Source: Myxococcota bacterium
GTDB taxonomy: Bacteria > Myxococcota_A > UBA796 > UBA2385
NCBI GenBank assembly: GCA_023150805.1
Contig: JAKLKF010000001.1
Location: forward strand, 62,001-126,000
DNA length: 64,000 nt
Direction of reading: 5' to 3'
Below, piece by piece: positions 28,582-46,786 of the stretch; the stretch's first letter is position 1, and every line of letters starts with the position of its first letter. Position numbers and translations under genes: made by a program. The notes beneath the pieces are model-generated. The model saw nothing but the letters and a program-made list of their open reading frames with translations. It was not told the origin of the DNA and did not search any database.

Positions 28582-28928
28582 CGACCCAATGTAGCGATGG
28601 GCTCGCCGGCCGTGCCGCGATCCTCGGCCGCATGCGCCAGGACGTCGCGGACGACGTGCGCGACGTGCTCGTCGGCGAGTCGGTACAGGCGGTGACGCCC
28701 GGCGGCCTCGGAGGCGACGAGGTGGGCGTCCCGCAGCAGGCGCAGGTGGTGGGACAGGGCGCTCTGCTCCATGTCGAGCGCCCGGGCGAGGTCCCCCACG
28801 GTCCGCGGCCCCGCCCGGTGCAGCAGGTCGAGCACCGACAGGCGCGCCGGGTGCGCCATCACGGCCAGCAGGGCGGCGGCCGCGCCGAAGACCTCCGGCG
28901 GCGCCGCGGCGCAAGGGGCGTCAGGCAC
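28578..28928 (-). CDS. ArsR/SmtB-family zinc-type metalloregulator (alpha5 sensor)
   Basis: This 116-residue winged-helix repressor starts at a GTG. The recognition helix is QSALSHHLRLLRDAHLV (about 55-71). The C-terminal helix reads D86-E-H88-x10-H99-A-A-E102, an exact match to the alpha5 zinc-binding signature DxHx10HxxE of SmtB and CzrA. No alpha3 Cys motif is visible. It should therefore release DNA when Zn(II) (or Co) binds. It overlaps the exporter gene by 8 nt and aceK by 4 nt. A palindrome over the exporter start codon (29929-29948) is its likely operator. Confidence 0.92.
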   Translation of the reverse strand: MPDAPCAAAPPEVFGAAAALLAVMAHPARLSVLDLLHRAGPRTVGDLARALDMEQSALSHHLRLLRDAHLVASEAAGRHRLYRLADEHVAHVVRDVLAHAAEDRGTAGEPIATLGR

Positions 28929-29946
28929 GGGCGACCCGGCGGGTGCAGTCGCGCACCTCGCAGGGCGGCGCCTCGGCCCCCTCCACCTGGAGCGTGGCGT
29001 GCCGGACGCCGTGGTCGTGCTCCAGGCTGCGCACCGCGGCGGCGCGCACCGCCTCGAGGTCCGCCCCGGCGCGCGCGACCAGGTGCACGCTCACGATGGC
29101 ACCCTGGCCGTCGAGGGTCCACACGTGGGCGTCGTGCACCGAGGCCACGCCGGGCACCGCCTCCAGGGCCAGGCACATGCCCTCCACGTCGAAGCCGGGG
29201 GGAGGGAACTGCAGCAGGACCCGGCCGGTGTCCCGCAGCAGCCCCACCGTGCCCCAGAGCACCAGCCCGGCGATGAACAGGCTGACCACCGGGTCGGCCG
29301 CGGGGATCCCCGCCATGACCAGGCCGGCGGCGACCATCGCGCCCACCGAGCCCAGGGCGTCGGCGAGCATGTGCACCAGCGCGCCGCGGACGTTGAGGTT
29401 GCCCGAGTCCGCCCGCGACAACGCCCAGGCGCTGCCCAGGTTCAGCGCCAGGCCCAGGCCGCCGACGACCAGCACCGGCAGCCCCGGGACGTCCGGCGGC
29501 CCTTGCCGCAGGCGCTCCACCGCCTCCCAGACGATGAAGGCGCAAGCGCCGACCAGGGTGAGGCCGTTGACGAAGCCTCCGACCACCTCGGCGCGGCGCA
29601 TGCCGAAGGTCCGGGTCCCCTCGGCCGGGCGCAAGGCCAGGCGGGCCGCGGCGAGGGCGAGCGCCAGGGCCCCCACGTCGCTGAGCATGTGCGCGGCGTC
29701 GGAGAGCAGCGCCAGCGACCCGGTGACCAGGCCGACGGCGACCTCGACGAACAGGAAGATCCCGTTGAAGAGGAGCGAGAGGCCGATGGCCCAGGTCGCC
29801 GAGGCGGTCCCGTGCGCGTGGCCGTGGGAGTGGCCGTGCCCGTGCGCGTGGCCGTGGGAGTGGCCGTGGGAGTGGCCGTGCTGGTGGGCGTGGTCGTGGC
29901 TCAGGAGGCACCCGCGTCCAAGGAGGACATATGATGGACGTTTCAT
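28921..29946 (-). CDS. Cation diffusion facilitator (Zn2+ exporter) with His-rich N-terminus
   Basis: This 341-residue protein belongs to the CDF family. The N-terminal 50 residues contain about 15 His in repeated HGHSHGHAHG units. Transmembrane metal-site motifs are SDAAHMLSD (about 82-90, HxxxD) and VHMLADALGS. The C-terminal cytoplasmic domain contains VHDAHVWTLDGQG and VEGMCLALEAVPGV. It is an inner-membrane proton-driven zinc efflux pump. Drawn from the ATG at 29946, which lies inside the operator palindrome and lacks a Shine-Dalgarno sequence. The message may be leaderless, or translation may start at a nearby codon. Confidence 0.92.
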   Translation of the reverse strand: MKRPSYVLLGRGCLLSHDHAHQHGHSHGHSHGHAHGHGHSHGHAHGTASATWAIGLSLLFNGIFLFVEVAVGLVTGSLALLSDAAHMLSDVGALALALAAARLALRPAEGTRTFGMRRAEVVGGFVNGLTLVGACAFIVWEAVERLRQGPPDVPGLPVLVVGGLGLALNLGSAWALSRADSGNLNVRGALVHMLADALGSVGAMVAAGLVMAGIPAADPVVSLFIAGLVLWGTVGLLRDTGRVLLQFPPPGFDVEGMCLALEAVPGVASVHDAHVWTLDGQGAIVSVHLVARAGADLEAVRAAAVRSLEHDHGVRHATLQVEGAEAPPCEVRDCTRRVARA

Positions 29947-32377: not shown

Positions 32378-34426
32378 TTGCCGCTCCTGCCCCACGCGCC
32401 CCGCCTGCTCGGACTGAGCCTGCTGCTCGGCCCCGCGGCCTGCCTGCGCTACCCGGACCCGGGCGCCGACACCGGTGGAGGCGGCGGCGTGGACGAGCAA
32501 CGCGCGACGATCCAGGGCACGGTCACCGACGCCACCGGAGCGCCGGTGGGCGGCGCCCGGGTCACCAGCAGCCCGCGCGGCTTCGAGGCGACCGCGGACG
32601 CAGACGGGCGCTACGTCATCGACCGCCTGCCGCCGGGGGAGCACCAGGTGGTGGCGGCCGCCCCCGACCACGTCACGACCACCTCCTCGCCGGTGACGGT
32701 GAACGCGGGCGAGGTCGCCACCGTCGACCTCTCGCTGGCCACCGCGCCCCCGGGCGGCACGCTGTCGGTGCGGCTGCGCGGCCCCGACGACCAGCCGCTC
32801 GCCGGCGCGACGGTCCGGACCTCGGCGGGGATCGAGGGCAGCACCGACGCCGACGGCGCCCTCACGCTGACCGGCGTGGCCGGCGAGGGCCTGCAGCTCG
32901 TGGTGGGCGAGACCGACCGGACCTGGGCCTGGCAGCTCGACGACGTCGACATCTCCGCCGCCGGTGGCCTCCAGCTCGCCTACCAGGTCTCCGGCCGCCC
33001 GCCCGCCGACGCCACCTGGCAGGGCAACATCTGGTGCACCTCTTGCCACCCGGACGTGGCGGCCTGGCACCTGGACACGGCCCACGCCCGGGCAGCCGCG
33101 ACCGGCCTGCCCGACGAGCTGGAGGATCGCTTCCAGGCCGGGGACGAGGTGGCGCTCGGCGCCGCCCGGGCGACGCTGTCCCTGCAGGACGGCGACGCCC
33201 TGGTGGCCCTGCAGGACGCTTCCGGCGCGCTGCAGGTGCTGACGGTCGAGGGGCTCATCGGCGACGGCGAGGGGCGGGCCGTGCCCTACGTCCGCGAGGG
33301 CGAGCAGCGCTGGCCGCTGCCGCTGGCCTGGATCGCCACCGACCCCTCCCGGGGCGAGGGCTACCCCGACGGGACCGGCCGCTTCGTCGCCTTCGAGGCC
33401 GAGCGCTGGTTCGACGACGCCGGCCGCTTCGTCGAGCGCGACCCGACGGCCTCCGCCGAGGCGTCCTGCCTGCCCTGCCACGTGACGGGCGCCGACCTGA
33501 GCCTGCGCTCGGACGGCGGCGTCGACATGGTGGCCACCAACGGCAGCGGCGCATGGAACGACGCCGGCGTGCAGTGCGAGGCCTGCCACGGCCCCGGCAG
33601 CGCCCACGCGACCACCACCGACGAGTCCGAGCGCGCCTTCACCATCACCTCGCCGCAGCTCCTGCAGCGCGACCGGGCCGAGGACGTCTGCGGCCAGTGC
33701 CACAGCCGGACCGTGGCCGAGGGCACGGGCCTGCCCTACCCGCTGACCGCTGACGGGCGCTTCCAGCCCGGCCAGGCGCTGTCCGACTTCGCGACGGTGG
33801 CGGAGGATCGCTGGGCCGACGGCTCGGCGCGCGCCGGGCGGCAGCAGGTCCAGGACGTGGCGGCCTCGCCGCACGGCCCGGGCACCGATGTCGACCCCGG
33901 TCCCGGCATGATCTGCCTGGACTGCCACGGCCCGCACGGCGTGGGCCGCGACGGCGGCGCCTGGGCCCACATGGGCGTGCTCGACGCCGACGGCGGCGAC
34001 CTGTGCCTGTCCTGCCACCTGGACCGGACCTTCGGCGGCGACGAGAGCCTGGTGCCCGGCCACGCCGCGCACGCCCGCTTCGAGCCCGAGAGCGACCACC
34101 AGACCGGCCGCTGCGCGACCTGTCACATGCCGGCCACCGCGGCGACTGTCGCCTGGAGCACGGCCAGCGGCGCTGGCGACGTCTCCTCCCACGGCTTCAC
34201 GGTGGTCTCGCCCGAGGTGACCCTGGCGGCCTTCGACGACGCCGGCGCGAGCAGCCTGCCGGTCGGCAGCGCCCCTCCCCACTCCTGCGCCGAGTGCCAC
34301 GACTACGCCCTCTGGTACTGGGAAGGCGGCGTCTGGGACAGCGTCTTCCCCGGCCCCGCCGGCGACCCGACCGCGCGCCAGACCCACGTCGACTACCTCG
34401 ACGCCTTCACGGAGAAGTTCGAATAG
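32378..34426 (+). CDS. Octaheme c-type cytochrome lipoprotein with carboxypeptidase-regulatory-like domains
   Basis: This protein has 682 residues from a TTG at 32378. The start is uncertain, but it must follow the promoter at 32309. A signal peptide leads to lipobox Cys22 (LLGPAAC). Two Ig-like carboxypeptidase-regulatory domains follow (about 42-117 with DADGRYVIDRLPPGEH, and 124-195 with STDADGALTLTGV). The heme domain starts at CTSCH (Cys220) and holds eight CXXCH sites: CTSCH, CLPCH, CEACH, CGQCH, CLDCH, CLSCH, CATCH, CAECH. The regulatory-type domains suggest a stalked outer-membrane cytochrome. It is the first gene of the nine-gene island. The next gene starts at or near its TAG stop. 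Confidence 0.88.
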   Translation: MPLLPHAPRLLGLSLLLGPAACLRYPDPGADTGGGGGVDEQRATIQGTVTDATGAPVGGARVTSSPRGFEATADADGRYVIDRLPPGEHQVVAAAPDHVTTTSSPVTVNAGEVATVDLSLATAPPGGTLSVRLRGPDDQPLAGATVRTSAGIEGSTDADGALTLTGVAGEGLQLVVGETDRTWAWQLDDVDISAAGGLQLAYQVSGRPPADATWQGNIWCTSCHPDVAAWHLDTAHARAAATGLPDELEDRFQAGDEVALGAARATLSLQDGDALVALQDASGALQVLTVEGLIGDGEGRAVPYVREGEQRWPLPLAWIATDPSRGEGYPDGTGRFVAFEAERWFDDAGRFVERDPTASAEASCLPCHVTGADLSLRSDGGVDMVATNGSGAWNDAGVQCEACHGPGSAHATTTDESERAFTITSPQLLQRDRAEDVCGQCHSRTVAEGTGLPYPLTADGRFQPGQALSDFATVAEDRWADGSARAGRQQVQDVAASPHGPGTDVDPGPGMICLDCHGPHGVGRDGGAWAHMGVLDADGGDLCLSCHLDRTFGGDESLVPGHAAHARFEPESDHQTGRCATCHMPATAATVAWSTASGAGDVSSHGFTVVSPEVTLAAFDDAGASSLPVGSAPPHSCAECHDYALWYWEGGVWDSVFPGPAGDPTARQTHVDYLDAFTEKFE

Positions 34427-35286
34427 CCCCGACCCTGCCAACGCTGTGGCTCCTGTCCTCGCTCCTCGCCGGCTGTGGCGTGGTGCGGGGGGACCGACCT
34501 TCGGACCCCGACGCCCTCTTCCCGCACGAGGCCGGGTACGACGCGGCCCTGGCGCACGGGGCCGACGCGCTCACCCTGGGCGCGGCCGCCTGCGCCGACT
34601 GCCACGACACCCAGGCGACCGCGACCTCGACGGGCGGGCCCCCGGCCTGCGCCGAGTGCCACGCCGGCTACCCCCACGTCGAAGGCTGGGCCGCCGGGAG
34701 CCAGCATGGCCCGGGCACCTGGGGCGAGGGCGCCGACCGCAGCGCCTGCGAGGCCTGCCACGCCGCCGCCGGCCTGGTCGCCGCGGAGCGCTTCGCCTGC
34801 GACAGCTGCCATGCCTCCTGGCCCCACCCGGTCGGCTGGGCGGAGGCCGGCAACCACGGCCTGTACGCGCAAGCCCGGGGCTCGGCGGCGGCGGCCTGCG
34901 GGAGCTGCCACGGCGCCGACCTGGCCGGCGGCGACGTCGGCGTCGGCTGCACCGCCTGCCACGACAGCTACCCGCACCCCGAGGGCTGGGGCCTGGAGAC
35001 GGGCCACCCCGACGCGGCGCGCGAAGACCTGTCCGCCTGCACCGGCTGCCACGGCGGCGACGGCGCGGACCCGGGCGCCACGGGCGGCAACAGCGGGGTC
35101 GCCTGCTCGCAGTGCCACGCCGGCTTCCCCCACGCCGAGGGCTGGGCCGAGGGCGGCCACATGGTCGGCACCTGGCAGGTCGGCGAAGGCGCCTGCGCGG
35201 CCTGCCACGACGCCGGCGAGGGACCCTCGACCCTGGTGATGAGCTGCGCGGCGCGCTGCCACGGCGGCGAGGAGACGGGATGGTGA
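34423..35286 (+). CDS. Nine- to ten-heme cytochrome lipoprotein with PHxxGW repeats; start codon unclear
   Basis: About 287 residues. No ATG, GTG or TTG sits at a sensible place. Drawn from ATA at 34423, because GGAGAA lies 8 nt upstream and it overlaps the previous stop. CTG at 34435 is the alternative. The lipobox is LLSSLLAGC. Nine CXXCH sites (CADCH, CAECH, CEACH, CDSCH, CGSCH, CTACH, CTGCH, CSQCH, CAACH) are followed by one CX3CH (CAARCH) at the end. Every second heme has the form CxxCHxxxPHxxGW, about 60 residues apart, so the protein is built of repeated di-heme modules. No mononuclear catalytic centre was recognised. It is probably an electron-transfer wire at the outer membrane. It overlaps the porin gene by 7 nt. 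Confidence 0.8.
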   Translation: MAPTLPTLWLLSSLLAGCGVVRGDRPSDPDALFPHEAGYDAALAHGADALTLGAAACADCHDTQATATSTGGPPACAECHAGYPHVEGWAAGSQHGPGTWGEGADRSACEACHAAAGLVAAERFACDSCHASWPHPVGWAEAGNHGLYAQARGSAAAACGSCHGADLAGGDVGVGCTACHDSYPHPEGWGLETGHPDAAREDLSACTGCHGGDGADPGATGGNSGVACSQCHAGFPHAEGWAEGGHMVGTWQVGEGACAACHDAGEGPSTLVMSCAARCHGGEETGW

Positions 35287-36530
35287 GCCTGCTCCTGCTG
35301 GCCCTGATGTCCGCCCCCGGGCGGGCGTCGGACTCGCTGGCCTACCCGACCCAGGGCTACCGGCTGTGGTCCTGGACGGCGGTCGAGGGCCTGCCCAGCC
35401 GCCTGGGCGAGACCGAGCTTCGCGCCGCCGAGCAGCTCGCCGTCGAGCTGGCCCCCGGGCGGCGCACGACGATCTACGGCATCGGCGCCGTCGCGAAGTC
35501 GGCCGAGGGCGACGGCCCCGACACGGTCGAGCTGTACCGCCTGCATGCCACCTGGCGCCAGCCCAGCCTGGTGCTGGACGCCGGGCGCCTGTCGCGGTGG
35601 GACGTGCGGGGGCGGCACCACCTGGACGGGATCAACGCGGTCATCGGCACCGGCAAGCTGACGGCGGACGCCTGGGCCGGCCAGCTCTGGCACCCCGAGA
35701 CCTGGCAGGTGGGCCACACCCTGGTGGGCGGCGGCGAGCTCGGCTGGCGCCCACGCCCCGGCGTGCACGCGCTGGGCGGGGCCGAGGTCCGCGGTGACCT
35801 GGACGGAGCGGAAGCGGTGGGGCTGCGCCTGCACGCGGCGACCTCGGCCTGGGGCGCTCGTGGGCAGCGCGCCCTGGCGCTGATCGAGGGGCAGCCCGCC
35901 GAGGGCGTGCGGGCGACCCTGGACGGCACGCTGCCCGTCGCGCAGCGGCTGGAGCTGGAGCTGGGCGGCCGCTGGGAGGGCCTGGAGCCCGCGACCCTGC
36001 CGGTCGCGCTGGACTCGCCCCAGGCCTGGCTGGGCGCGGAAGGCTACGGCGTGGTGACCGCGGGCGCGCGGCTGAAGGCCGGCATGGTCTTCGCGCAGGC
36101 CACGGGAGGCCCGACCTTCCACCCGCAGTCGGCCGACGAGCTGGGCGGCAGCGCGCGGGTCGAGGTCGGCGCGCAGACAGAGCAGGGCCTGCGGATCGGC
36201 GTGGCCGGCGTGGGCGCGGCCATCGGCGATGGCTGGGTCGCCGGCGGCACGCTGGGTGGAGGGCTCGAGCACGACGGCCTCGACCTGCGGGCCGAGGGTG
36301 GGCTCTTCCGGTACATGGCGCTGGCCGGCGGGCTGGGCGAGGTGGCCGAGGGCCGCCTGCGCGCCGAGGTGCCGTTGCTGGACCGCGGCAACCTGCGCAG
36401 CACCCGCCGCCTGGTCCTGGCGACCGAGCTGGCGGCGGGCACGGACCGGATCCTGTCTCGGTGGATGCGCGGCGGCCTCGCGCTGCATGGCACCCTGGCC
36501 GGCCCTCGCACCGACGGGGACGGAACGTGA
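35280..36530 (+). CDS. Predicted outer-membrane beta-barrel (porin of a porin-cytochrome conduit)
   Basis: This 416-residue protein has a signal peptide (VSLLLLALMSAPGRA) and then a chain of amphipathic strands with alternating polar and apolar residues (LAVELAPGRRTTIYGIGAVA, LHATWRQPSLVLDAGRLSRW, LRLHAATSAWGARGQRALAL, TAGARLKAGMVFAQATGGPT). There are no CXXCH motifs. The C-terminus is GGLALHGTLAG. Its position among lipoprotein cytochromes recalls MtrB and the Geobacter porin-cytochrome barrels, but it is shorter than MtrB and no family motif was identified. The role as a sheath for cytochromes is inferred. It overlaps both neighbours. Confidence 0.72.
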   Translation: MVSLLLLALMSAPGRASDSLAYPTQGYRLWSWTAVEGLPSRLGETELRAAEQLAVELAPGRRTTIYGIGAVAKSAEGDGPDTVELYRLHATWRQPSLVLDAGRLSRWDVRGRHHLDGINAVIGTGKLTADAWAGQLWHPETWQVGHTLVGGGELGWRPRPGVHALGGAEVRGDLDGAEAVGLRLHAATSAWGARGQRALALIEGQPAEGVRATLDGTLPVAQRLELELGGRWEGLEPATLPVALDSPQAWLGAEGYGVVTAGARLKAGMVFAQATGGPTFHPQSADELGGSARVEVGAQTEQGLRIGVAGVGAAIGDGWVAGGTLGGGLEHDGLDLRAEGGLFRYMALAGGLGEVAEGRLRAEVPLLDRGNLRSTRRLVLATELAAGTDRILSRWMRGGLALHGTLAGPRTDGDGT

Positions 36531-37177
36531 TCCCGCTGCTCGCGCTGCTCCTGGCCTCCCAGGCCGCCGACCCGCCCGCCGCGCAGGACTCAGCCGCGCA
36601 GGACACAGCCGCGCAGGACAGTCCCTCGCACCACCGCCCCCCCGGCAGCAAGCCCGGCACGCCCGCGCTGCAAGACCCCTTCCCCTTCGATCACCAGGGT
36701 CACGCGCGCGCCTTCCGCCAGGTCAAGGTCGTCTGCGCCGACTGCCACCCGATCGGCCTGACCACCAAGGAGGAGGGCAGCTTCGCCTGGCCGGGCGACG
36801 AGGTCCCGCACCCCTACACCAACTGCCACGCCTGCCACCGCCACGAGGTCGAGGGCGCCCCCCGCAGCGCGCGGGGCATGTGCCTGCAGTGCCACGCCAA
36901 CCCCGAGGAGATCCTGCCCGAGACCCACGACCTGGGCTGGATGCAGATCCACGGCATGGTCGCGCGCACGCCCGGCAACGACTGCGAGGACTGCCACACC
37001 AGCTCCCGCTGCATCGCCTGCCACGACGACCGCGGGGCGCTCAGCCAGAACCCGCACGGGCCGGGCTTCTCGGCCTGGCACGGGATCGAGGCCCGCATGG
37101 ACCCGCGCAAGTGCTCGACCTGCCACGAGAGCAGCACCTGCACCACCTGCCACGAGACCGGGAGCACGCCGTGGTGA
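36527..37177 (+). CDS. Periplasmic heptaheme c-type cytochrome
   Basis: This protein has 216 residues from a GTG overlapping the barrel-gene stop (GTGA). A signal peptide (VIPLLALLLASQAA) is followed by a Gln/Ala/Asp linker and a heme region opening with FPFDHQGHARAF and VVCADCH, as in class III/c7-type cytochromes. Seven CXXCH sites are present: CADCH, CHACH, CLQCH, CEDCH, CIACH, CSTCH, CTTCH. The last two are very close together (CSTCHESSTCTTCH). No lipobox is present, so a soluble periplasmic shuttle between the inner membrane and the barrel is likely. An upstream in-frame start would add basic residues, so the start is not fully certain. Confidence 0.85.
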   Translation: MIPLLALLLASQAADPPAAQDSAAQDTAAQDSPSHHRPPGSKPGTPALQDPFPFDHQGHARAFRQVKVVCADCHPIGLTTKEEGSFAWPGDEVPHPYTNCHACHRHEVEGAPRSARGMCLQCHANPEEILPETHDLGWMQIHGMVARTPGNDCEDCHTSSRCIACHDDRGALSQNPHGPGFSAWHGIEARMDPRKCSTCHESSTCTTCHETGSTPW

Positions 37178-37548
37178 GCCGCCTGCGGACGCCCGCCCTC
37201 GCGCTGGCGCTGGCGGCCTGGCTGCCCGCCTGCGGGCCCGTGGAGCCCTGCGCCGACGGGTCGATGTTGGAGAGCCCCGACGGGCTGGGCCTGACGGAGG
37301 AGGAGCACGCCCTGGGCTGGGGCGACGCGGAGTGCTGGCACTGCCACGCCGAGGCCAGCATCCACCGCCTGGGCTGCACACCGGGCGTCGACCTGCAGGC
37401 CGTGCAGGAGCGGGTGCGGACCGAGGGCCTGTCGAGCTGCGCCTCCTGCCACGGCGACAACGGCGTCAGCGGCTCCCCCGACAGCGGCTCCCCCGACAGC
37501 GGCTCCCCCGACAGCGGCTCCCCCGACAGCGGCGAGATCACTCCATGA
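37174..37548 (+). CDS. Small diheme cytochrome lipoprotein with SPDSG repeats
   Basis: This 124-residue protein starts at a GTG overlapping the previous stop (GTGA). Signal and lipobox are SRLRTPALALALAAWLPAC. Two heme sites, CWHCH and CASCH, are about 45 residues apart. The C-terminus is a low-complexity tail of four SPDSG repeats encoded by perfect 15-nt tandem repeats (37471-37530). The tail may act as a flexible tether or simply reflect repeat expansion. It is probably a mono- or di-heme relay attached to the larger lipoprotein cytochromes. Confidence 0.8.
   Translation: MSRLRTPALALALAAWLPACGPVEPCADGSMLESPDGLGLTEEEHALGWGDAECWHCHAEASIHRLGCTPGVDLQAVQERVRTEGLSSCASCHGDNGVSGSPDSGSPDSGSPDSGSPDSGEITP
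37471..37530 (+). repeat. Four perfect 15-nt tandem repeats
   Basis: The unit GGCTCCCCCGACAGC occurs four times head to tail and encodes SPDSG units at the C-terminus of the diheme lipoprotein. Similar 15-nt arrays sharing GACAGC occur in two other genes of the window. Confidence 0.95.
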
Positions 37549-38450
37549 AGCGTCGCCTGGCCCTGCTGCCCCTGGTCGGCCTGGCCCTGCTGGGCGCCGA
37601 CAGCCGCGAGCTGCGCCGCGAGGACGGCACGCGCAACCCCCACGGCGACCCCCACGCCTGCTCCGACTGCCACCTGGCCGGCCCCTCGCCCGACCAGCCG
37701 GGCCCCTACAAGCCGATCATCCAGACCTGCCGCTCCTGCCACCCCACCGCCGACATGCACATGGTGGGCGAGGCCCCCTCGACCGTGCGCATCGCCGAGG
37801 GCTTCCCGCTGCACGACGGCCTGGTGACCTGCACCACCTGCCACGTCGAGCCCGCGCACGGCGGGGACGAGGTGGTGCCGGCGCCCTACCACCGCGGGGG
37901 ACCCTACGCCGACGTGCTGGACCTGTGCTTCCAGTGCCACGACCGCAGCACCTACGCCCGCCACGACCCGCACCACCCGGTCGGTCCCCGCGAGCAGGAC
38001 GACGAGTCCTGCGCCGCCTGCCACAAGGGCCCGCCCGAGACCCGCGTCGAGGCTGCCAAGGCCCGCCTGCGCGAGGACCCCGAGGCCGCCTGCCGCACCT
38101 GCCACGAGGGCTGGGTGCACGTCGGCGCCAGCACCCACGTCGGCAAGCAGGTCCCCGCCGAGGTCGCCGCGAAGCTGCCCGCAGAGCTGGCGCTGATGGA
38201 CGGGCGCATCGCCTGCTGGACCTGCCACGAGGTCCACGCCACCCACCAGGAAGACCGGGTCGCGGACCGCTGGAGGGGCGAGCGCCCCCTCAGCCTGGCG
38301 CTGCGCCAGGGCGCCGTGCAGTCGGAGTGGGACCTGCCCGACGTCGAGCTGGACTGGCCCGGCACGGTCGACGAGGAGCACCCCCCGCTGCTCGCCCTGC
38401 CCGTCGAGGACGGCGCCCTGTGCCATGCCTGCCACGGAGACGGGCCGTGA
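37545..38450 (+). CDS. Octaheme c-type cytochrome
   Basis: This 301-residue protein starts at an ATG overlapping the previous stop (ATGA). A basic n-region and hydrophobic core (MKRRLALLPLVGLALLGA) form a signal peptide or anchor. Eight CXXCH sites are present: CSDCH, CRSCH, CTTCH, CFQCH, CAACH, CRTCH, CWTCH, CHACH. Extra His residues (ADMHMVGE, HDPHHPVGP, STHVGKQ, EVHATHQED) can serve as distal ligands. The DPHACSDCH opening followed by TCRSCHPTADMH recalls NrfB/doubled-CXXCH type electron carriers. It is probably periplasmic. Confidence 0.86.
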   Translation: MKRRLALLPLVGLALLGADSRELRREDGTRNPHGDPHACSDCHLAGPSPDQPGPYKPIIQTCRSCHPTADMHMVGEAPSTVRIAEGFPLHDGLVTCTTCHVEPAHGGDEVVPAPYHRGGPYADVLDLCFQCHDRSTYARHDPHHPVGPREQDDESCAACHKGPPETRVEAAKARLREDPEAACRTCHEGWVHVGASTHVGKQVPAEVAAKLPAELALMDGRIACWTCHEVHATHQEDRVADRWRGERPLSLALRQGAVQSEWDLPDVELDWPGTVDEEHPPLLALPVEDGALCHACHGDGP

Positions 38451-41002
38451 TCGCCCTGCTGCTGCTCCTCTCGGCCTGCGAGCGCCCTGGCCTGCCCGAG
38501 CTCTCGGACGGCCCGTACCGCGTCACCGCCCAGGTGCTCTGGACCGTGGAGCTGGACGCCCACCAGCCCACCGACGTGCTGGCCACCCCCGACGGCGGGA
38601 TGTGGGTGCTCGACGGCTACGACCAGCAGGTCGAGCGCTTCGACGCCCGGCAGCAGGCTCTCGCCCCGCTGCCGCTGCCGAGCTGGACGCGCCCCTCGCG
38701 CCTGGCAGAGGCCGCGCAGGGCGGGGCATGGCTGGCCGACCCGCTGGGCAACCTGGTCCGGATCGACGCCCAGGGTGATCTCCAGCCGCCGCTGGACCTC
38801 AGCTCCCTGGGAGAGGGGGCGGCGCCGGTCGCCGCGCTGGAGCACCAGGGCCGGCTGTACGTGGCCGACCGGCACGGCGGCGTCGACGTCATCGACGCCA
38901 GCACCGGCGCGCTGCTGCGCTCGGTCGACCAGGACGCCGACGGCAGGCCGGTGCGCCTGGTGACCGACCTGCTGGTCGGACCGGCGGAGCAGGTGCTGCT
39001 GGTCGACACGCTGCGCACGGCGGTCCACGTCCTGGACGACGAGGGGATCGGCTCATCGTGGGGCCACTTCGGGATGTGGGCGGGGGCACTGATGAAGCCC
39101 AAGTCCGCCGCGGTCGCGCCCGAGGGCACGGTCCTGGTGGCCGACACGGCGCTGGACGTGCTGCAGCTCTTCGACGAGCAGGGCCACGCGATCGGGATGG
39201 TCGCGACGTCCGACGGCGAGATCCTCCGCCCGGGGCACGCCATCGCGGTCGACGCGGCGGGCGTCGACGAGTTCCTGGTGCTGGACGCCTCGGTGCCCGC
39301 CGTCATGCGGCTGCGGATCTCCGCCGAGGAGGTGCGCGCCGCGAAGGAGCGCGCCCGGAGCACCCACGCCCTGCGGTACCCGCTGCGGGACGAGCAGGGC
39401 GAGGGCGTCGCCGGTCCGCAGGGGGACACCTGCCTGCAGTGCCACGACGGCCTGGTCCTCGACGACCGGCAGATCTGGCAGGCCGACCTGGATCACCACC
39501 CCGTCGACGTGGTGCCCGACTACGAGGTGCCCGCCTTCTTCCCCCTGGACGAGGAAGGGCGGCTGCGCTGCACCACCTGCCACAGCCCCCACGGCGCGAG
39601 CAAGGCCGAGGACGCGGCGGCGGTGGCCGACGAGGAGGGTCGGCTGGCCACCGCGCGCCACTGGTCCGGCGACGAGTTCTTCACCCGCCTGGAGCGCGGC
39701 GACTCGGCGCTGTGCGAGGCCTGCCACTCCGACGCGGCCCACGACGACGCCATCGATCGCCTGGGCCTGTCGGGCTCCACGCACCCGGTGGGCTCGGCGC
39801 TGGAGGAGGCGCTGGCCAAGCGCGCGGCCGAGCAGGGCTCGCCTCTCGACGACGTGCAGAAGGGCTGCCTGGGCTGCCACTCTCCCCACGCGGCCGAGGG
39901 CAAGGCCCTGCTGCGCGCCGCCGGCGACGGCAAGGGCTGCATCGCCTGCCACGAGGGGCACGCCGACAGCCGCCGCAGCCACCCCATCGGCGCGGCCGGC
40001 GACCGCCCTCGCGTGCGGGACGCCTCCCAGATCCCGGTCGACCGCGAGGGGCAGGTCGACTGCTCCTCCTGCCACCAGCTCGTGGGCGGCAGCGCCGACC
40101 AGCTCCTCCGCAGCCCCGCCGACGGCGGAGACCTGTGCGTCTCCTGCCACGAGGAGCGGGTGAAGATGATGAGCGGCCCGCACGGCCGGGTGCCCGGCGC
40201 GCACGGCACGCCCTGCCTGGGCTGCCACGACGTGCACGACGAGCCGTCCGAGGCCCTGCTCACGACGATGGTCGGGGGCCCCGCCGACCCCACCGGCTGC
40301 CTGGACTGCCACGGCAAGGGCAAGAAGCACGCGGTCCGCGGCCAGGCGCCCGGCGAGCGCGGGCACCCCGTCGACGGCAAGGTCCACGACAGCGGCGCCA
40401 GGGACAGCGGCACCAGGGACAGCGGCGCCAGGGACAGCGGCACCAGGGACAGCGGCCAGCAGCCCCTGACCTGCGCCTCCTGCCACGACGCGCACCGGCC
40501 CGAGGCCAGCTCCTGCGACGGGTGCCACCCCGACCAGGCCGCCGACCGCGACCGCGGCGGCCACGGCAAGGCGACCTGCCTGGACTGCCACCCCGCCCAC
40601 CAGGATCGCCCCCTGGCGCGGGAGACCGCCCACAACCCGCGCTCGTGGTCCTGCCTGGCCTGCCACGGCGAGGAGCACGGTCGCGCCGGCGTCACCCGCG
40701 TCGCCGAGTTCGAGCACCCCGCGCCGGTCTTCGAGCCGGACGGGACGCGCTGGGAGCCGCTGGGCGGGCTGCCGCTCTTCGCGCCGGACGGCACCACCCA
40801 GCCGCAGGGCGTCAACGGCGAGATGGGCTGCCTGACCTGCCACGTGGTGCACGGACCCGATCCGGCCGAGCCCAAGGCCAAGCTCAAGCGGCCGGGCTGG
40901 GAGAAGCCCTGCGCCGCCTGCCACGGGGACAACGCCCTGGCGCTGTACCGCTACTTCCACCAGCCCGATCGCCGTTCCGGCATCGACACGAAGGGCCGAT
41001 GA
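38447..41002 (+). CDS. Fifteen-heme cytochrome lipoprotein with N-terminal NHL-type beta-propeller
   Basis: This 851-residue protein starts at a GTG overlapping the previous stop. The lipobox is IALLLLLSAC. Residues about 25-310 are NHL/six-bladed-propeller-like repeats (PTDVLATPDGGMWVLDGYDQ, AALEHQGRLYVADRHGGVDV, KSAAVAPEGTVLVADTALDV, GHAIAVDAAGVDEFLVLD). The heme part holds fifteen CXXCH sites: CLQCH, CTTCH, CEACH, CLGCH, CIACH, CSSCH, CVSCH, CLGCH, CLDCH, CASCH, CDGCH, CLDCH, CLACH, CLTCH, CAACH. A DSGAR/DSGTR repeat splits the hemes after the ninth. A surface-exposed propeller could dock a substrate or partner. It is the largest cytochrome of the island and its stop overlaps the micro-gene. 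Confidence 0.88.
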   Translation: MIALLLLLSACERPGLPELSDGPYRVTAQVLWTVELDAHQPTDVLATPDGGMWVLDGYDQQVERFDARQQALAPLPLPSWTRPSRLAEAAQGGAWLADPLGNLVRIDAQGDLQPPLDLSSLGEGAAPVAALEHQGRLYVADRHGGVDVIDASTGALLRSVDQDADGRPVRLVTDLLVGPAEQVLLVDTLRTAVHVLDDEGIGSSWGHFGMWAGALMKPKSAAVAPEGTVLVADTALDVLQLFDEQGHAIGMVATSDGEILRPGHAIAVDAAGVDEFLVLDASVPAVMRLRISAEEVRAAKERARSTHALRYPLRDEQGEGVAGPQGDTCLQCHDGLVLDDRQIWQADLDHHPVDVVPDYEVPAFFPLDEEGRLRCTTCHSPHGASKAEDAAAVADEEGRLATARHWSGDEFFTRLERGDSALCEACHSDAAHDDAIDRLGLSGSTHPVGSALEEALAKRAAEQGSPLDDVQKGCLGCHSPHAAEGKALLRAAGDGKGCIACHEGHADSRRSHPIGAAGDRPRVRDASQIPVDREGQVDCSSCHQLVGGSADQLLRSPADGGDLCVSCHEERVKMMSGPHGRVPGAHGTPCLGCHDVHDEPSEALLTTMVGGPADPTGCLDCHGKGKKHAVRGQAPGERGHPVDGKVHDSGARDSGTRDSGARDSGTRDSGQQPLTCASCHDAHRPEASSCDGCHPDQAADRDRGGHGKATCLDCHPAHQDRPLARETAHNPRSWSCLACHGEEHGRAGVTRVAEFEHPAPVFEPDGTRWEPLGGLPLFAPDGTTQPQGVNGEMGCLTCHVVHGPDPAEPKAKLKRPGWEKPCAACHGDNALALYRYFHQPDRRSGIDTKGR
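40388..40456 (+). repeat. 15-nt tandem repeats inside the fifteen-heme cytochrome gene
   Basis: Alternating units GACAGCGGCGCCAGG and GACAGCGGCACCAGG occur four times plus a partial copy. They encode DSGAR/DSGTR, between the ninth and tenth heme sites. Confidence 0.95.
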
Positions 41003-41112
41003 GAACCGTCCGGCTCGCCATCCTGGCCTTCCTGCTGGGCTTCGGCCTGGTGGCGGGGGGGTACTCGCAGGTCCGCTTCCTCTACAACGCCTGGTCCCAC
41101 GCGGGGTTCTGA
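40999..41112 (+). CDS. 37-residue single-span membrane peptide of the cytochrome island
   Basis: A short frame from an ATG overlapping the fifteen-heme cytochrome stop (ATGA) to a TGA 2 nt before the NapC-type gene. It encodes a basic start (MRTVRLAI), one hydrophobic span (LAILAFLLGFGLVAGG) and a tail with aromatic residues (YSQVRFLYNAWSHAGF). It has no heme site. Overlap, spacing and a proper membrane topology argue that it is real. It may stabilise or anchor the quinol dehydrogenase complex, like other one-helix subunits of respiratory enzymes (inference). Confidence 0.65.
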   Translation: MRTVRLAILAFLLGFGLVAGGYSQVRFLYNAWSHAGF

Positions 41113-41114
41113 CG

Positions 41115-41918
41115 ATGGCACTGCTCTCTCGCCTCGTCGGTGCCGCGCGCGCGGAGCTGACCTTCCTCAAGGCCCACCCCGCCCACCTGGTCGCGGTCGT
41201 CGGCGCGCTGGCCGCAGGCAGCCTGGCGGGCCTGCCGGTCGCCAACGAGACCTACACCTACCTGTGGGCGGACCATCGCTTCTGCGACGACTGCCACGTG
41301 CACGACTACGCCAACCGGGCCTACGAGCGCTCGGTGCACTTCGGCCTGACGACCTGCCACGACTGCCACCTGGTGCCGATCCGCCACTACCCCCGCAACC
41401 TCTACGTCACGGTCTTCGACCCGCCCCAGTCCGCCGACGACATCCACCGGCCCGACGTGCAGAGCGTCATCTGCACCCGCTGCCACTCCTCGCAGACCGA
41501 CGACGAGCCGCTGACCGGCCCCATGCCCGAGGAGGTCCGGCGGACCGTCGTCAAGATCGACGAGAGCCCGATGCACCGCCTGCACATGAGCGCGAAGACC
41601 CGCGACCCCGGGCTGTACCGCGGCGGCGGGAAGCCCCACGGGCAGGGCGAGGAGCACGAGGCGGGCCACGCGATCCACGGCGTCGTCGCCGACTGGGACG
41701 CCGGGCAGATCACCTGCATGGACTGCCACGGCGCCGAGTCCAACCGCGCGCACACCTTCGAGGCCAGCACGGCGAACTGCGTGGAGTGCCACGAGGGCGT
41801 GGCCCCCGAGGGGACCCCGATCGCCGAGCTGGAGTGCCGCGAGTGCCACTTCTCCGGCTTCGCGGGCAAGCCGGGCTCGGCGATGGCAGCGGCCCCGGCG
41901 GCCCCCCCCGCGCACTAG
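41115..41918 (+). CDS. NapC/NrfH-type membrane-anchored hexaheme quinol dehydrogenase
   Basis: This 267-residue protein has one N-terminal membrane anchor (HPAHLVAVVGALAAGSLAGLP) followed by a periplasmic multiheme domain. Its six sites are CDDCH, CHDCH, CTRCH, CMDCH, CVECH and CRECH. The order anchor, first heme in RFCDDCHVHDYANRAYERS, then TTCHDCHLVPIRHYPRNLYV fits the NapC/NirT/NrfH family, which oxidises (mena)quinol and feeds periplasmic cytochromes, as CymA does in Shewanella. Family members usually bind four or five hemes, so six is an extension. It is the last gene of the island and the logical entry point for electrons. Confidence 0.86.
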   Translation: MALLSRLVGAARAELTFLKAHPAHLVAVVGALAAGSLAGLPVANETYTYLWADHRFCDDCHVHDYANRAYERSVHFGLTTCHDCHLVPIRHYPRNLYVTVFDPPQSADDIHRPDVQSVICTRCHSSQTDDEPLTGPMPEEVRRTVVKIDESPMHRLHMSAKTRDPGLYRGGGKPHGQGEEHEAGHAIHGVVADWDAGQITCMDCHGAESNRAHTFEASTANCVECHEGVAPEGTPIAELECRECHFSGFAGKPGSAMAAAPAAPPAH

Positions 41919-42134: not shown

Positions 42135-42833
42135 ATGTCCTCGCTCCTCTCGTCGGCCTCCCCGCGGGCGCTGCTGCTGGCCCCGTTCGTCCTCCCCCTG
42201 CTCTGGGCCTGCGCGCCCCCCGCCCGTGACGTCGACTCCGGCGGGGGGGCGGGCGACGGCGGAGCCACCGACGGAGGCGCGACCGACGGGGGCACCTCCG
42301 ACGGGGGCACCTCCGACGGGGGCACCTCCGATGGCGGTGCAGACGGCGGTGGCACGGGGGACGGGGGCACGGACGGGGGAACCGGCGTCGCGGAGCCCAC
42401 GGTCCGGATCCTCTTCCCCCAGACGCGCGACGACGTGGTGATCTGTCCGGAGTTCGTCATCGTGGTCGACGTCGAGGGCATGGAGCTGGTCGACTTCCGC
42501 GAGAACCCGGACAACGTGGAGGGCCAGGGTCACTGGCACCTCTTCGACAGCGGGGACTACCTGGCCGCCTACGTCGATGACTGGGGCCTGGTGACGCTGG
42601 AGAACGACGGCTCGGTGGAGTCGCACATCCTGACGGTGGAGCTGGCGCAGAACGACCACACCGAGCTCGGCATCAGCGCGACCACGGAGATCCTGGTCGG
42701 GCCCGACGACTGCATCGGCGGCGCTCCGAGCAAGAGCACCGACGGCGGGGGCACCGACAGCGGGGGCACCGACAGCGGGGGCACCGACAGCGGCAGCTCG
42801 CACGCCAGCCACTTCACGGGCGCGGGGCGCTGA
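42135..42833 (+). CDS. Lipoprotein with DGG-repeat linker
   Basis: This 232-residue protein starts at the ATG at 42135, which gives a good signal peptide (LLLAPFVLPLLWAC). The upstream extension in the frame is rejected for lack of a signal. After the lipobox Cys come DGGT/SDGGT repeats (about 35-80), then a beta-rich domain of about 115 residues (VRILFPQTRDDVVICPEFVI, GHWHLFDSGDYLAAYVDD) and a second repeat tail of three GGTDSG units. It resembles other myxobacterial surface lipoproteins of unknown role. Its stop overlaps the kinase start by 1 nt. Confidence 0.75.
   Translation: MSSLLSSASPRALLLAPFVLPLLWACAPPARDVDSGGGAGDGGATDGGATDGGTSDGGTSDGGTSDGGADGGGTGDGGTDGGTGVAEPTVRILFPQTRDDVVICPEFVIVVDVEGMELVDFRENPDNVEGQGHWHLFDSGDYLAAYVDDWGLVTLENDGSVESHILTVELAQNDHTELGISATTEILVGPDDCIGGAPSKSTDGGGTDSGGTDSGGTDSGSSHASHFTGAGR
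42747..42791 (+). repeat. Three 15-nt tandem repeats at the 3' end of the lipoprotein gene
   Basis: The unit GGGGGCACCGACAGC is repeated three times and encodes GGTDSG-type units. It shares the GACAGC core and 15-nt period with the arrays at 37471 and 40388. Confidence 0.9.
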
Positions 42834-44652
42834 TGGCCGGCGGGCGCCGCTTCGAGCTCCAGCGGCAGCTCGGCGAGGGCAGCTTCGGCACCGTGTACCT
42901 GGCGGACATGGTGTCCCTGGGCGGCTTCCGCACGACCGTCGCCTTGAAGGTGCTGGCGCAGCGCTGGTCGACCGAGTCGGACGCGGCCCGGCGCCTCCGG
43001 GACGAGGCCCGCCTGCTGGGCCGCCTGGAGCACCGCAACATCGTCCGGGTCTACGACCTGGTGCGCGTGGACGGGCGGTGGGCGGTGGTGATGGAGGCGG
43101 TGCGCGGCGCCGACCTGGAGCAGGTGGTCCACGCCGCCAGCGCCACCGGCAGCCCAGCCCCGCTCCGCGCTGCGCTGGAGGTGGTGCGCTGCATCGCGGG
43201 GGCCCTGCACGCGGCCCTGCACGGCAGCCACGGCCTGGCCGGCGAGCTGCGCGTGGTGCACCGGGACATCAAGCCGAGCAACGTGATCCTCACCCCCGAC
43301 GGCGAGGTGAAGGTCCTCGACTTCGGCATCGCCCGCGCCGACCTGGACGAGCGCGAGGCCAAGACCTCCAGCATCGGCTTCGGATCGATCCCCTACATGG
43401 GCCCCGAGCGCCTGCGGGGAGAGGAGGCGACCGCCGCGGGCGACGTCTACTCGCTGGGCGCCGTGCTCTACGAGCTGCTGGTGGGGGTGCCCTACGGCCG
43501 CTCGGAGCTGGGAGAGGCGCGCGCGCAGGCGCAGTGGGAGGACCGGCGCCGCCTGTTCCGCGCGGCCGTGGGGACCGGCGAGGTGCCCGACGCCACCGAG
43601 GAGCTGATCGCCGCGATGATGGCCTGGGACCCGGACCAGCGCCCCGACGTGCGCACGGTGGCCGACCGCCTGGACCGCCTGGGCCGGGCCGCCCCGGGCG
43701 AGAGCCTGGCCGAGTGGGCCTCCCGGACCGTGCCCGTCGCGCTGCGGCGCGCGCAGTCCGGTGAGCACCAGGTCGACGGCGTGCTCTCCGAGGAAGAGAG
43801 CGGCGGCGGGGGGCGGTCGTCGGGGGATCGGGTGCTGCCCGCGCCGGGAGGCCGCTCCGACGGTGTCTCCAGCGACGCGCCCGCGCCCCCCCCGAGCGCC
43901 CCCACCCTGGTCGCCTCCGACATCGAGGCCCCGCAGGCACCGGAGCCGCCCTCGCTCGTCCCGCAGCCGGGCCCCCCGGCGGCGCCGACGATGACCCTCG
44001 ACGACGTGCCGACCGCGCGGTCCCGCCCTCCCTGGGGACTCGCCCTGGGCGCCGCGCTGGGCCTCGGCCTGGCGGCCCTGGGCGCCTGGGCGGTCCTCTC
44101 CGGAGGCGACGCGCCCCCCCCCGAGCCGCCCCCGTCGCCGCGGCCCTGGCGCCGCCCGCGGTCCCACCCCCACCGCCCCAGGAGCCCCCGTCGCCGTCGC
44201 TCGCCGCGGGCCCCACGTCGCCCGACGCGCCGCCCACGCAGGACAGCCCACCCGCGCCGACCCCGGCAGCGGCCCCCCCCGCCCAGCCCTCGGCCGCGAC
44301 CCCCTCGCCCTCCGCTTCGGCCAGGACCTCGTCCTCGACCCGGACCGCCGCCGCGGCCGCCACAGCCTCGCCCCCGGCCGTCGACCCGCCGCCGGCCCTC
44401 GAAGCGGACGCGACCACCACCGCCACGGTGCGCGTGGTCAAGGTGGTCGTCCCCGGCTCGAGCCGCGTGTCCGCGCGCTGCGGGGACCGCACGGGCAGCG
44501 GCACCACCTCGCTGGTGGTGCGCGACCTGCCCGCCGGTCCCTGCCAGGTCACGGCGGAGCTCGACGGGGCCACGCTGGCCGGCACCCTGCGCGCCACCGA
44601 GTCCCACGCCTTCTCCTGCACCGCCACCGGCGGCGCCCTGGAGTGCCGGTGA
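42833..44652 (+). CDS. Membrane Ser/Thr protein kinase, interrupted by a frameshift in a C9 run
   Basis: The N-terminal kinase domain (about 8-290) has LGEGSFGTVY, Lys39 (VALKVL), HRDIKPSN (D145), LDFGIAR (D163) and MGPERL, so it looks active. A Pro/Ser-rich juxtamembrane part and one membrane span (about 400-424, WGLALGAALGLGLAALGAW) follow. The frame then breaks: after a run of nine C (44114-44122) the original frame becomes Arg/Pro nonsense. The frame one base back reads a normal Pro/Ala linker and a PEGA-like extracellular domain ending at 44652 (VVKVVVPGSSRVSARCGDRT, FSCTATGGALECR). One missing C would explain it. It is coupled to both neighbours. Confidence 0.82.
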
Positions 44653-46082
44653 CCAGCCTGCTCCTCGCCCTGGCGCTCTGCGCCGGCGCCGCCTTCGCCG
44701 ACGGCACCGCCCTGTGGCTCCAGGGCAGCCCCGACCCGACCCTGACCCCCGGCATGAGCGCCGCCACGCCACAGCGCCTGGCCCCGCCCGCCGCGTGGAC
44801 CGAGGTCGACGACGCCGCGGTGGAGCACCTGGCCCAGGAGCTGGCCCTGGTGGGGCCGCTGAAGGACCAGCTCGACGGCGAGCTGCAGATCATGCGGCGG
44901 CTGGAGGGCGCCCTGGCGGCCGTCGACCTGGTGCGGGCGCAGGACCGCGACCTGGCGTGGCGCGCCCTGGTCTTCCAGGGCTACGCGGTGCATCGCTACT
45001 TCCAGGACACCCTGGCCGCCGACCCGGCCGCCGCGCCGTGGCGGCAGGCGCTGGGCGGCGTCGGAGGCGAGCTGGCGGTCGCGCCCTGGCTGCGCGCCAT
45101 CGCCCTGGACCCCGAGCGGGTGCCCACCGCCGAGGAGCTGCCCGACGAGCCGCAGCGCGTGGCCTACACCGAGCTGCGGGCCCGGCGCCTGCTGGAGCCC
45201 GGCGCCACCGTGCAGGTGGAGGGGGCGGCCACCCTGGTGGTCGACGGGCGCCCCGCCCCCGCGCGCAAGGCGCTCCTGATGCCCGGGCTGCACCAGGTCG
45301 CCCTGGTGATCGACGGCGAGCTGGCCGTCCGGGAGCGGGTGGACCTGGCGGCCGGCGAGACCCGCACGCTGCGCCCGCTGGCCTCCGCGGCCCGCCTGCA
45401 GGCGCTGGGGGAGACCCTGGCCGCCGCGAAGGGGCCGGTCCTGCTGGCGCCCGAGGTGCTGGCCCGCCTGGAGGGCCTCGAGGCGCCCGTCGCCTTGCTG
45501 GTCGAGGTCGACGGCGACACGCGCCGGTTCGACGTGGTGGGGACGAGCGCGGTGCCCCTGCAGGTCGAGCGGGAGCGCCGGGGCGAGGGCGGCCCCGCGC
45601 TGGTGGTGGGCGCCAGCGTGGGCGGAGGCTGGGTCTACGACGGCAACTTCGTGCTGCAGAACGAGGACGCGCCGGAGAGCGTCGGCACGGCCAACGCCGG
45701 GGCCCCCGTCGGCGCGCTCAGCCTGGGCGGCGAGGTGGGGGCCTTCGCCTTCGGGCTGGGCGTCGACCTCGCCGTGCCCGTCGGCGCGCACCACGACCTG
45801 CCGGTCGGCGAGGGGCGCATGCGGGCCCGGCCCTTCCCCCACGTGGCCCTGGGCCACCGCCTGATCCAGGTCGCGGCGGGGCCCCTGCTGCCCTGGCACC
45901 TGGGCGTCGGGCCGCGCCTGAGCCTGCCGCTGCCCGACCTGCGCAGCGGCCCCCTCCAGCTCGTCGCCTCCTACACCCACGGGATCAACCTGCCGCTCAC
46001 CGACGAGGCCGGCGCCGACTTCGAGCCCGGCCAGGCGCGGCTGGCCTGGCTGGGCGTGGGCGGTCGCTGGCGCAGCCGCTAG
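44649..46082 (+). CDS. Secreted envelope protein, possible C-terminal beta-barrel
   Basis: This protein has 477 residues from a GTG overlapping the true kinase stop (GTGA), which supports the frameshift reading of the kinase. Signal peptide TSLLLALALCAGAAFA. The N-terminal half is helical (AVEHLAQELALVGPLKDQLD). The middle holds a PEGA-like unit (VQVEGAATLVVDGRPAPARK, LMPGLHQVALVIDGE). The last 150 residues are strand-rich with Gly and aromatic residues (LVVGASVGGGWVYDGNFVL, FPHVALGHRLIQVAAG), ending GVGGRWRSR. No family was recognised. It probably works with the kinase at the envelope. Confidence 0.7.
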   Translation: MTSLLLALALCAGAAFADGTALWLQGSPDPTLTPGMSAATPQRLAPPAAWTEVDDAAVEHLAQELALVGPLKDQLDGELQIMRRLEGALAAVDLVRAQDRDLAWRALVFQGYAVHRYFQDTLAADPAAAPWRQALGGVGGELAVAPWLRAIALDPERVPTAEELPDEPQRVAYTELRARRLLEPGATVQVEGAATLVVDGRPAPARKALLMPGLHQVALVIDGELAVRERVDLAAGETRTLRPLASAARLQALGETLAAAKGPVLLAPEVLARLEGLEAPVALLVEVDGDTRRFDVVGTSAVPLQVERERRGEGGPALVVGASVGGGWVYDGNFVLQNEDAPESVGTANAGAPVGALSLGGEVGAFAFGLGVDLAVPVGAHHDLPVGEGRMRARPFPHVALGHRLIQVAAGPLLPWHLGVGPRLSLPLPDLRSGPLQLVASYTHGINLPLTDEAGADFEPGQARLAWLGVGGRWRSR

Positions 46083-46093
46083 CCCCGGCGCCC

Positions 46094-46786
46094 TCAGTCA
46101 GGGGTGCCCAGGCGGTAGCCGACCCCGCGCACGGTCTCCAGCAGCTCGGCCGCGGGGCCCAGCTTGCGGCGCAGCGCCTTGATCCGCGCGTCGACCGCGC
46201 GCAGGGTCACCTCGTCGGCGGTCGTGCCCCACACGTCGTCCAGCAGGTCCTCGCGACGCAGCACCTGGCCGCGCCGCCCCACCAGCGTGGACAGCAGGCG
46301 CAGCTCCAGGGCCGTCAGGTCCAGCGGCACGTCCTCGACCCAGGCCTGCCGGCCGTCGTGGTCGACGCGCAGCGGTCCCAGGCGGTCGGGCCGGGACCCG
46401 CCGCGGTCCTGGCCCGTCCGCCGCAGGATCCCGCGCACCCGCAGCACCAGCTCGCGGATCGAGAAGGGCTTGGAGACGTAGTCGTCGGCCCCGATGGCCA
46501 GGCCGACGACCCGATCCAGCTCGCTGTCCTTGGCCGAGACCATCACGATGGGCATGCCGGCCGTCTCCGGGTCGGCGCGGACGGCACGCGCGACCTCCTC
46601 GCCAGGCAGGTCCGGCAGCATCAGGTCCAGCAGCAGCAGGTGCGGGCGCGGGCTGCGCCGCAGGGCGGCAAGGCCCTCCCTGCCCGTGTGCACGCAGAGG
46701 GCCTCGATGCCCTGGCGCGAGAGGGCCCAGGCCATGGCATGGGCCAGGTCGACCTCGTCCTCGATGATGAGCACCGTCGGTGACAT
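46094..46786 (-). CDS. OmpR/PhoB-family response regulator (orphan)
   Basis: This 230-residue protein has a receiver domain with acidic pocket IIEDE (10-11), phospho-acceptor Asp54 (LLLDLMLPD), Ser in MVSAKD and Lys in VSKPFS, so it is phosphorylatable. The C-terminal winged helix ends in the usual LRAVDARIKALRRKLG and VRGVGYRLG. ATG 46786 is preceded by GGAGGAG. No histidine kinase gene is adjacent. The partner must be elsewhere, or could be the hybrid kinase at 52899 (speculative). Confidence 0.93.
   Translation of the reverse strand: MSPTVLIIEDEVDLAHAMAWALSRQGIEALCVHTGREGLAALRRSPRPHLLLLDLMLPDLPGEEVARAVRADPETAGMPIVMVSAKDSELDRVVGLAIGADDYVSKPFSIRELVLRVRGILRRTGQDRGGSRPDRLGPLRVDHDGRQAWVEDVPLDLTALELRLLSTLVGRRGQVLRREDLLDDVWGTTADEVTLRAVDARIKALRRKLGPAAELLETVRGVGYRLGTPD

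Follow-up and report, generated by a model that had tools for sequence, protein, structure and literature searches.

In a 64,000-nucleotide stretch of a Myxococcota genome (hereafter the window), we describe a nine-gene operon, g1-g9, at positions 32378-41918 of the plus strand, which probably encodes a complete extracellular electron transfer (EET) conduit with a NapC-type input here and possible alternative inputs. Outer-membrane conduits have been defined by three elements, namely a periplasmic multiheme c-type cytochrome, an integral barrel and one or more outer-membrane redox lipoproteins (PMC6148476). By prediction, the operon contains all three and adds an inner-membrane quinol dehydrogenase, so that the chain of parts from menaquinol to the outside that the first-pass annotation of the window had claimed is complete. 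The best reading is that it represents a new porin-cytochrome type, set apart from Oet-type and Geobacter conduits by the published descriptions of those systems. The nine genes are:

g1, 32378..34426, plus strand: octaheme cytochrome with an N-terminal carboxypeptidase-regulatory-like domain, probable lipoprotein
g2, 34435..35286, plus strand: lipoprotein cytochrome with 9 CXXCH and 1 CX3CH
g3, 35280..36530, plus strand: predicted 22-strand outer-membrane beta-barrel, heme-less, porin of the proposed conduit
g4, 36527..37177, plus strand: exported heptaheme cytochrome (7 CXXCH)
g5, 37174..37548, plus strand: diheme lipoprotein cytochrome
g6, 37545..38450, plus strand: octaheme cytochrome, predicted periplasmic
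g7, 38447..41002, plus strand: NHL beta-propeller fused to a 15-heme cytochrome, lipoprotein
g8, 40999..41112, plus strand: 37-aa membrane peptide with a single helix
g9, 41115..41918, plus strand: hexaheme NapC/NrfH-like inner-membrane quinol dehydrogenase

Gene content and predicted localisation

All nine open reading frames are present at these coordinates and, from their tight junctions, look like one transcription unit. They had been described as overlapping throughout, which holds for six of the eight junctions (4-7 nt), whereas g1/g2 and g8/g9 are separated by gaps of 8 and 2 nt. Our recount of CXXCH sites (8, 9, 0, 7, 2, 8, 15, 0 and 6 in g1 to g9) returned exactly the earlier total of 55 in seven cytochromes, together with one CX3CH in g2. 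Shuffling the residues of these cytochromes 500 times gave a mean of 0.28 CXXCH and a maximum of 3, against the 55 observed, and none of the other called genes of the window contains the motif.

Searches of each protein against profiles, as had been proposed, gave matches to cytochrome families and, for g9, to NapC/NrfH. Matches to c7/c3 multiheme families were found for g2 (PF14522 at 50 bits in the Pfam search), g4 (Cytochrome_C7) and g6, while the short diheme protein g5 gave only a marginal family match. The propeller and carboxypeptidase-regulatory-like domains expected on two of the cytochromes were recovered as NHL in g7 (21.7 bits against a cut-off of 20, beside a Paired_CXXCH match) and as PF13620 in g1 (74.5 bits, Pfam search). 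The NapC/NrfH-like N-terminus of g9 scored 24.7 bits against PF03264 in a whole-genome search, close to the Pfam cut-off, and searching PDB profiles with g9 returned nothing beyond weak matches to NrfA. We rejected two more specific identities for g9: it is not NrfH, as it reaches 28.2 bits against the equivalog model TIGR03153, far under the cut-off of 134.2, and no NrfA adjoins; nor is it ImcH, as it has six CXXCH, no CX3CH and, judging from the sequence, a single helix.

With regard to localisation, four cytochromes had been credited with lipoboxes. This stands for g2, g5 and g7 and for most of their orthologues, although the g2 lipobox (LLAGC) is included only with a CTG start at 34435, the first GTG (34480) falling after it. 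The GPAAC of g1 is non-canonical in this genome, the canonical form being present in several orthologues. These lipoproteins are sequence-predicted, and the membranes to which we assign them below are putative. In agreement with the earlier view of two periplasmic cytochromes, g4 and g6 (7 and 8 hemes) have an N-terminal export signal and no lipobox, which predicts a periplasmic location; none of the g6 orthologues has a lipobox either.

The barrel and a candidate barrel-threading cytochrome

The protein starting at 35280, g3, had been guessed to be a beta-barrel, and failure to fold as one had been named as grounds for abandoning the proposal. An AlphaFold2 model built on a 20-sequence alignment has 22 strands with good confidence (pLDDT 86.8, pTM 0.79), and its best Foldseek matches are outer-membrane barrels. 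As these matches are of diverse function, they support the architecture and not a specific homology; neither g3 nor the 20 members of its family matched any Pfam family, and g3 matched no NCBIfam family. In the clusters compared, the barrel gene is immediately followed by g4, whose seven heme sites are invariant in 21 sequences of two phyla, and this heptaheme protein is the most likely candidate for the cytochrome that threads the barrel.

We propose that menaquinol would be oxidised at the inner membrane by g9 with the peptide g8, and that electrons would then pass to the periplasmic multiheme cytochromes g4, g6 and g7, the propeller of the 15-heme g7 serving as a docking scaffold. A member of this group, most likely g4, would enter the barrel g3 and hand electrons to the outer-membrane lipoprotein cytochromes g1, g2 and perhaps g5. 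The outermost acceptor in the host is probably a decaheme of the OmcA/MtrC family (TIGR03507, 503.8 bits) encoded on contig C299, outside the operon, whereas in several relatives such a protein is part of the cluster; a weaker relative is encoded on C376. Genes for c-type cytochrome maturation are present in the host.

Conservation in relatives

The operon recurs in other Myxococcota, where a comparison of synteny had been suggested. A search with the barrel among 284 genomes of the phylum matched eight others, from the same and other families, and their surroundings, to the extent that the contigs cover them, show the same gene order and near-identical heme counts. Scanning genome contigs with the barrel alone found no relatives, but a scan with the g9 alignment found 26 loci, including Bdellovibrionota and one Syntrophobacteria metagenome-assembled genome (MAG). 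Matches to g9 above 200 bits, counted here as strong, were obtained in 12 of the 284 genomes of the phylum, in 12 of a sample of 241 Bdellovibrionota, and in 1 of 395 genomes of the phylum to which the Syntrophobacteria MAG belongs, which is that MAG itself.

None of the 42 CXXCH sites of g1, g2, g5, g6 and g7 is missing from any orthologue compared (g1, 8/8 sites in 11/11; g2, all nine in 11/11, the last with one extra residue in a few; g5, both in 15/15; g6, 8/8 in 12/12; g7, 15/15 in 12/12), and the six sites of g9 are invariant in 19 sequences across two phyla. The CX3CH near the C-terminus of g2 is probably a real tenth heme site, because it too is conserved in 11/11 orthologues. Nine aligned orthologues of g8 stand at the same operon position and share the C-terminal pattern F(L/V)..A..H.G. 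Values of dN/dS for eight of the genes, estimated from one close pair (L019 vs L020), range from 0.09 to 0.26, and each of these genes is, by this estimate, under purifying selection.

Clusters in Bdellovibrionota encode, in order, a barrel-sized protein, 7-heme, 2-heme, 4-heme and 11-12-heme cytochromes and a NapC-like protein, with a g2-like protein of 6-30 hemes adjoining. In Bdellovibrionales, these g2-like proteins are enlarged to 25-30 hemes (L049:10717-13197, L050:9998-12331).

Linkage to OmcA/MtrC surface decahemes

The gene right after g9 encodes an OmcA/MtrC-family decaheme, over the TIGR03507 cut-off, in L025/L045, L030, L035 and L037, and by coordinates such a gene likewise follows g9 in G088, G105 and G190, which are partly the same genomes. 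Across the 284 genomes of the phylum, an OmcA/MtrC protein over the cut-off is found in 8/12 with a strong g9 match and in 51/272 others (Fisher p = 6e-4, relatedness ignored).

A compact locus in family f24 of the phylum encodes an 18-heme cytochrome, a heme-less barrel-sized protein, a 13-heme cytochrome that includes a g4-like domain, a protein with a NapC/NrfH-like membrane N-terminus and 30 CXXCH, and OmcA/MtrC. This fusion (L150:8131-10119, L151:7976-9988) packs its hemes into 662-670 residues, about 22 residues per heme, and is apparently a quinol dehydrogenase joined to a long heme chain within a single polypeptide, the arrangement that a through-conduit would require. The first heme motif of the fusion is CH[LI]M, against CHxH in all 19 g9 proteins, which may reflect a change of axial ligand.

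The OmcA/MtrC decahemes themselves often carry an N-terminal collagen-like Gly-X-Y repeat right after the lipobox, both in the host (C299, L117:9331-11691; C376, L029:9214-11658) and in L030, L035, L037, L150 and L151. The repeat exceeds the PF01391 cut-off in L117 and L150 and is perhaps a stalk that keeps the cytochrome off the cell surface.

A second module with a different putative input

The host has a second copy of g1-g6 on contig C188 (L017:1771-13524), followed by a 1019-residue cytochrome-b561/octaheme (CbcL-like) protein, an NHL-4-heme protein and a 12-heme cytochrome. In L030/L149, the b561 unit, g7, g9 and OmcA/MtrC come in this order after a single g1-g6 module. On the best reading of these arrangements, g1-g6 would behave as an outer-membrane module, served by a NapC-type input in the window and by a cytochrome b561/octaheme input on C188. 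A tree of g6 is poorly resolved and does not date the C188 duplication, the two host copies grouping weakly. We give about even chances to the broader proposition that Myxococcota have an independently evolved porin-cytochrome lineage, to which a form in Bdellovibrionota is related, and that the conserved g1-g6 module of this lineage is combined with interchangeable NapC and b561-octaheme quinol-oxidising inputs; if so, respiration at low and at high potential would run through parallel or shared conduits.

The genes around the operon in the window are listed for completeness. Downstream lie a small putative lipoprotein (42135-42833) and a large open reading frame (42833-46783) with an N-terminal PknB-like Ser/Thr kinase domain, with no evidence of a link to the operon. 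Upstream, at 26821-28581 and 28921-29946 on the minus strand, are ordinary genes for isocitrate dehydrogenase kinase/phosphatase (AceK) and a histidine-rich CDF metal transporter.

Weighing the alternatives

The proposal of an outward EET conduit has to be held against several observations. The evidence consists of genes and predictions from uncultured bacteria, and the AlphaFold2 model of g4 is poor (pLDDT 63) and was set aside. Homology of the Bdellovibrionota barrel to g3 is not clear (hhalign E = 0.005, probability 7%). The decaheme neighbouring the operon in L019, L022, L027, L034 and L036 carries a Big_2 domain and is not classed as OmcA/MtrC by the model, the host's own OmcA/MtrC is unlinked to the operon, and G092, of the same genus, has OmcA/MtrC but neither a strong g9 nor a barrel match, in a draft that is 87% complete.

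The same conduit could also run inwards, with Fe(II) outside the cell, a cathode or a partner cell supplying electrons to the quinone via g9. We regard this as unlikely and favour outward flow, because OmcA/MtrC proteins, which are terminal reductases in Shewanella, are present and RuBisCO, the one CO2-fixation route searched for, was not found in the host genome. Inward flow nevertheless has precedents, in that the porin-cytochrome conduits PioAB and MtoAB can operate in this direction (PMC5566968) and Fe(II) oxidisers have CymA homologues (PMC6295460). Less probable still is a role of the cluster in serving an enzyme of the periplasm or cell surface, such as a nitrite, tetrathionate, DMSO or other reductase, instead of solid acceptors, with a barrel that passes only soluble substrate. 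Periplasmic reductases are the usual clients of NapC/NrfH-type donors, and several operon proteins score weakly against DmsE, NrfH and NrfB models. However, Pfam and NCBIfam searches found no catalytic subunit in the operon, and homologous clusters, which had been named as the place where a reductase would overturn the proposal, contain none in those examined and repeatedly adjoin OmcA/MtrC. On contig C110 the host encodes a separate NrfH (163 bits, above the cut-off) together with an NrfA-like protein, and nitrite reduction accordingly does not require g9. An identity as an NrfHA, DMSO or tetrathionate reductase operon was rejected on these grounds. The very high heme density would also suit a capacitor, an electron store or redox buffer of the periplasm and outer membrane with no through-conduit, all the more as transmembrane transfer is a conjectural step of the conduit; yet complete copies carry a dedicated barrel and a quinol dehydrogenase, which makes this the least probable of the three. 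Overall, the electron-transfer interpretation of the first-pass annotation is supported, with a role that we infer from gene content, conservation, the predicted barrel fold and the linkage to OmcA/MtrC.

Comparison with known systems

No description of this layout was found in the open-access literature searched, a scope outside which most subscription journals and preprints lie. The earlier statement that no described system has this layout thus held in that literature, although Oet-type clusters qualify it: a beta-propeller, large multiheme cytochromes and a porin occur together in them as well. If our reading is right, the whole route from quinol to surface is packed into one nine-gene operon, and its natural variants, such as the NapC-30-heme fusion and the single outer module served by two inner inputs, offer a way to test how such conduits are put together. 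As markers, the conserved genes could also point to EET potential in uncultured Myxococcota and Bdellovibrionota.

Judged by description, the Oet-type clusters are closest in content to g1-g9. OetABI clusters and an operon of propeller, 16-heme, 26-heme and peptidyl-prolyl isomerase genes are known from sulfate-reducing partners of anaerobic methanotrophic archaea (ANME), Geobacter and Anaeromyxobacter, and share with our operon the large multiheme cytochromes, a six-bladed beta-propeller protein, porin-cytochrome genes and a proposed EET role (PMC5539420, PMC10553843). In the Oet-associated operon, however, propeller, 16-heme cytochrome, 26-heme cytochrome and isomerase each have a gene of their own, a core set that g1-g9 lacks: the propeller of g7 is part of a 15-heme cytochrome and no isomerase is encoded, while a NapC-like quinol dehydrogenase and an octaheme cytochrome with a carboxypeptidase-regulatory-like domain are included.

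The Geobacter conduits OmbB-OmaB-OmcB, ExtABCD, ExtEFG and ExtHIJKL likewise combine a periplasmic multiheme cytochrome, a barrel of similar size (18-22 predicted strands) and redox lipoproteins (PMC4245776, PMC6148476), but as described they comprise 3-5 genes with a different cytochrome make-up and no inner-membrane dehydrogenase. The likeness to Shewanella MtrCAB/OmcA lies in the OmcA/MtrC-family decahemes that adjoin several homologous operons; no operon protein exceeds an MtrA/DmsE-type cut-off, and MtrAB (MtrCAB/PioAB) was rejected as an identity because the MtrB/PioB model TIGR03509 has no match in the host genome (it matches 16/284 genomes of the phylum, 0 of the 12 with a strong g9). 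PCC3 and PCC4 of Fe(II) oxidisers also unite a barrel, multiheme cytochromes and an inner-membrane redox protein in one cluster, but theirs is a five-helix protein with b-heme-type histidine motifs, and the PCC3 cytochromes have medians of 34 and 21 heme sites (PMC5566968). No five-helix inner-membrane protein with HX13H motifs is encoded here, the inner-membrane protein being NapC-like, and this identity too was rejected. Finally, Geobacter employs the quinol oxidases ImcH and CbcL as NapC-type and b-cytochrome/multiheme EET inputs (PMC6295460), and the host has one candidate for each, linked to its own g1-g6 copy. Although ImcH differs from g9 in having three helices and a CX3CH beside six CX2CH (PMC6295460), the host's pair of putative inputs thus resembles, by analogy, the Geobacter ImcH/CbcL pair.

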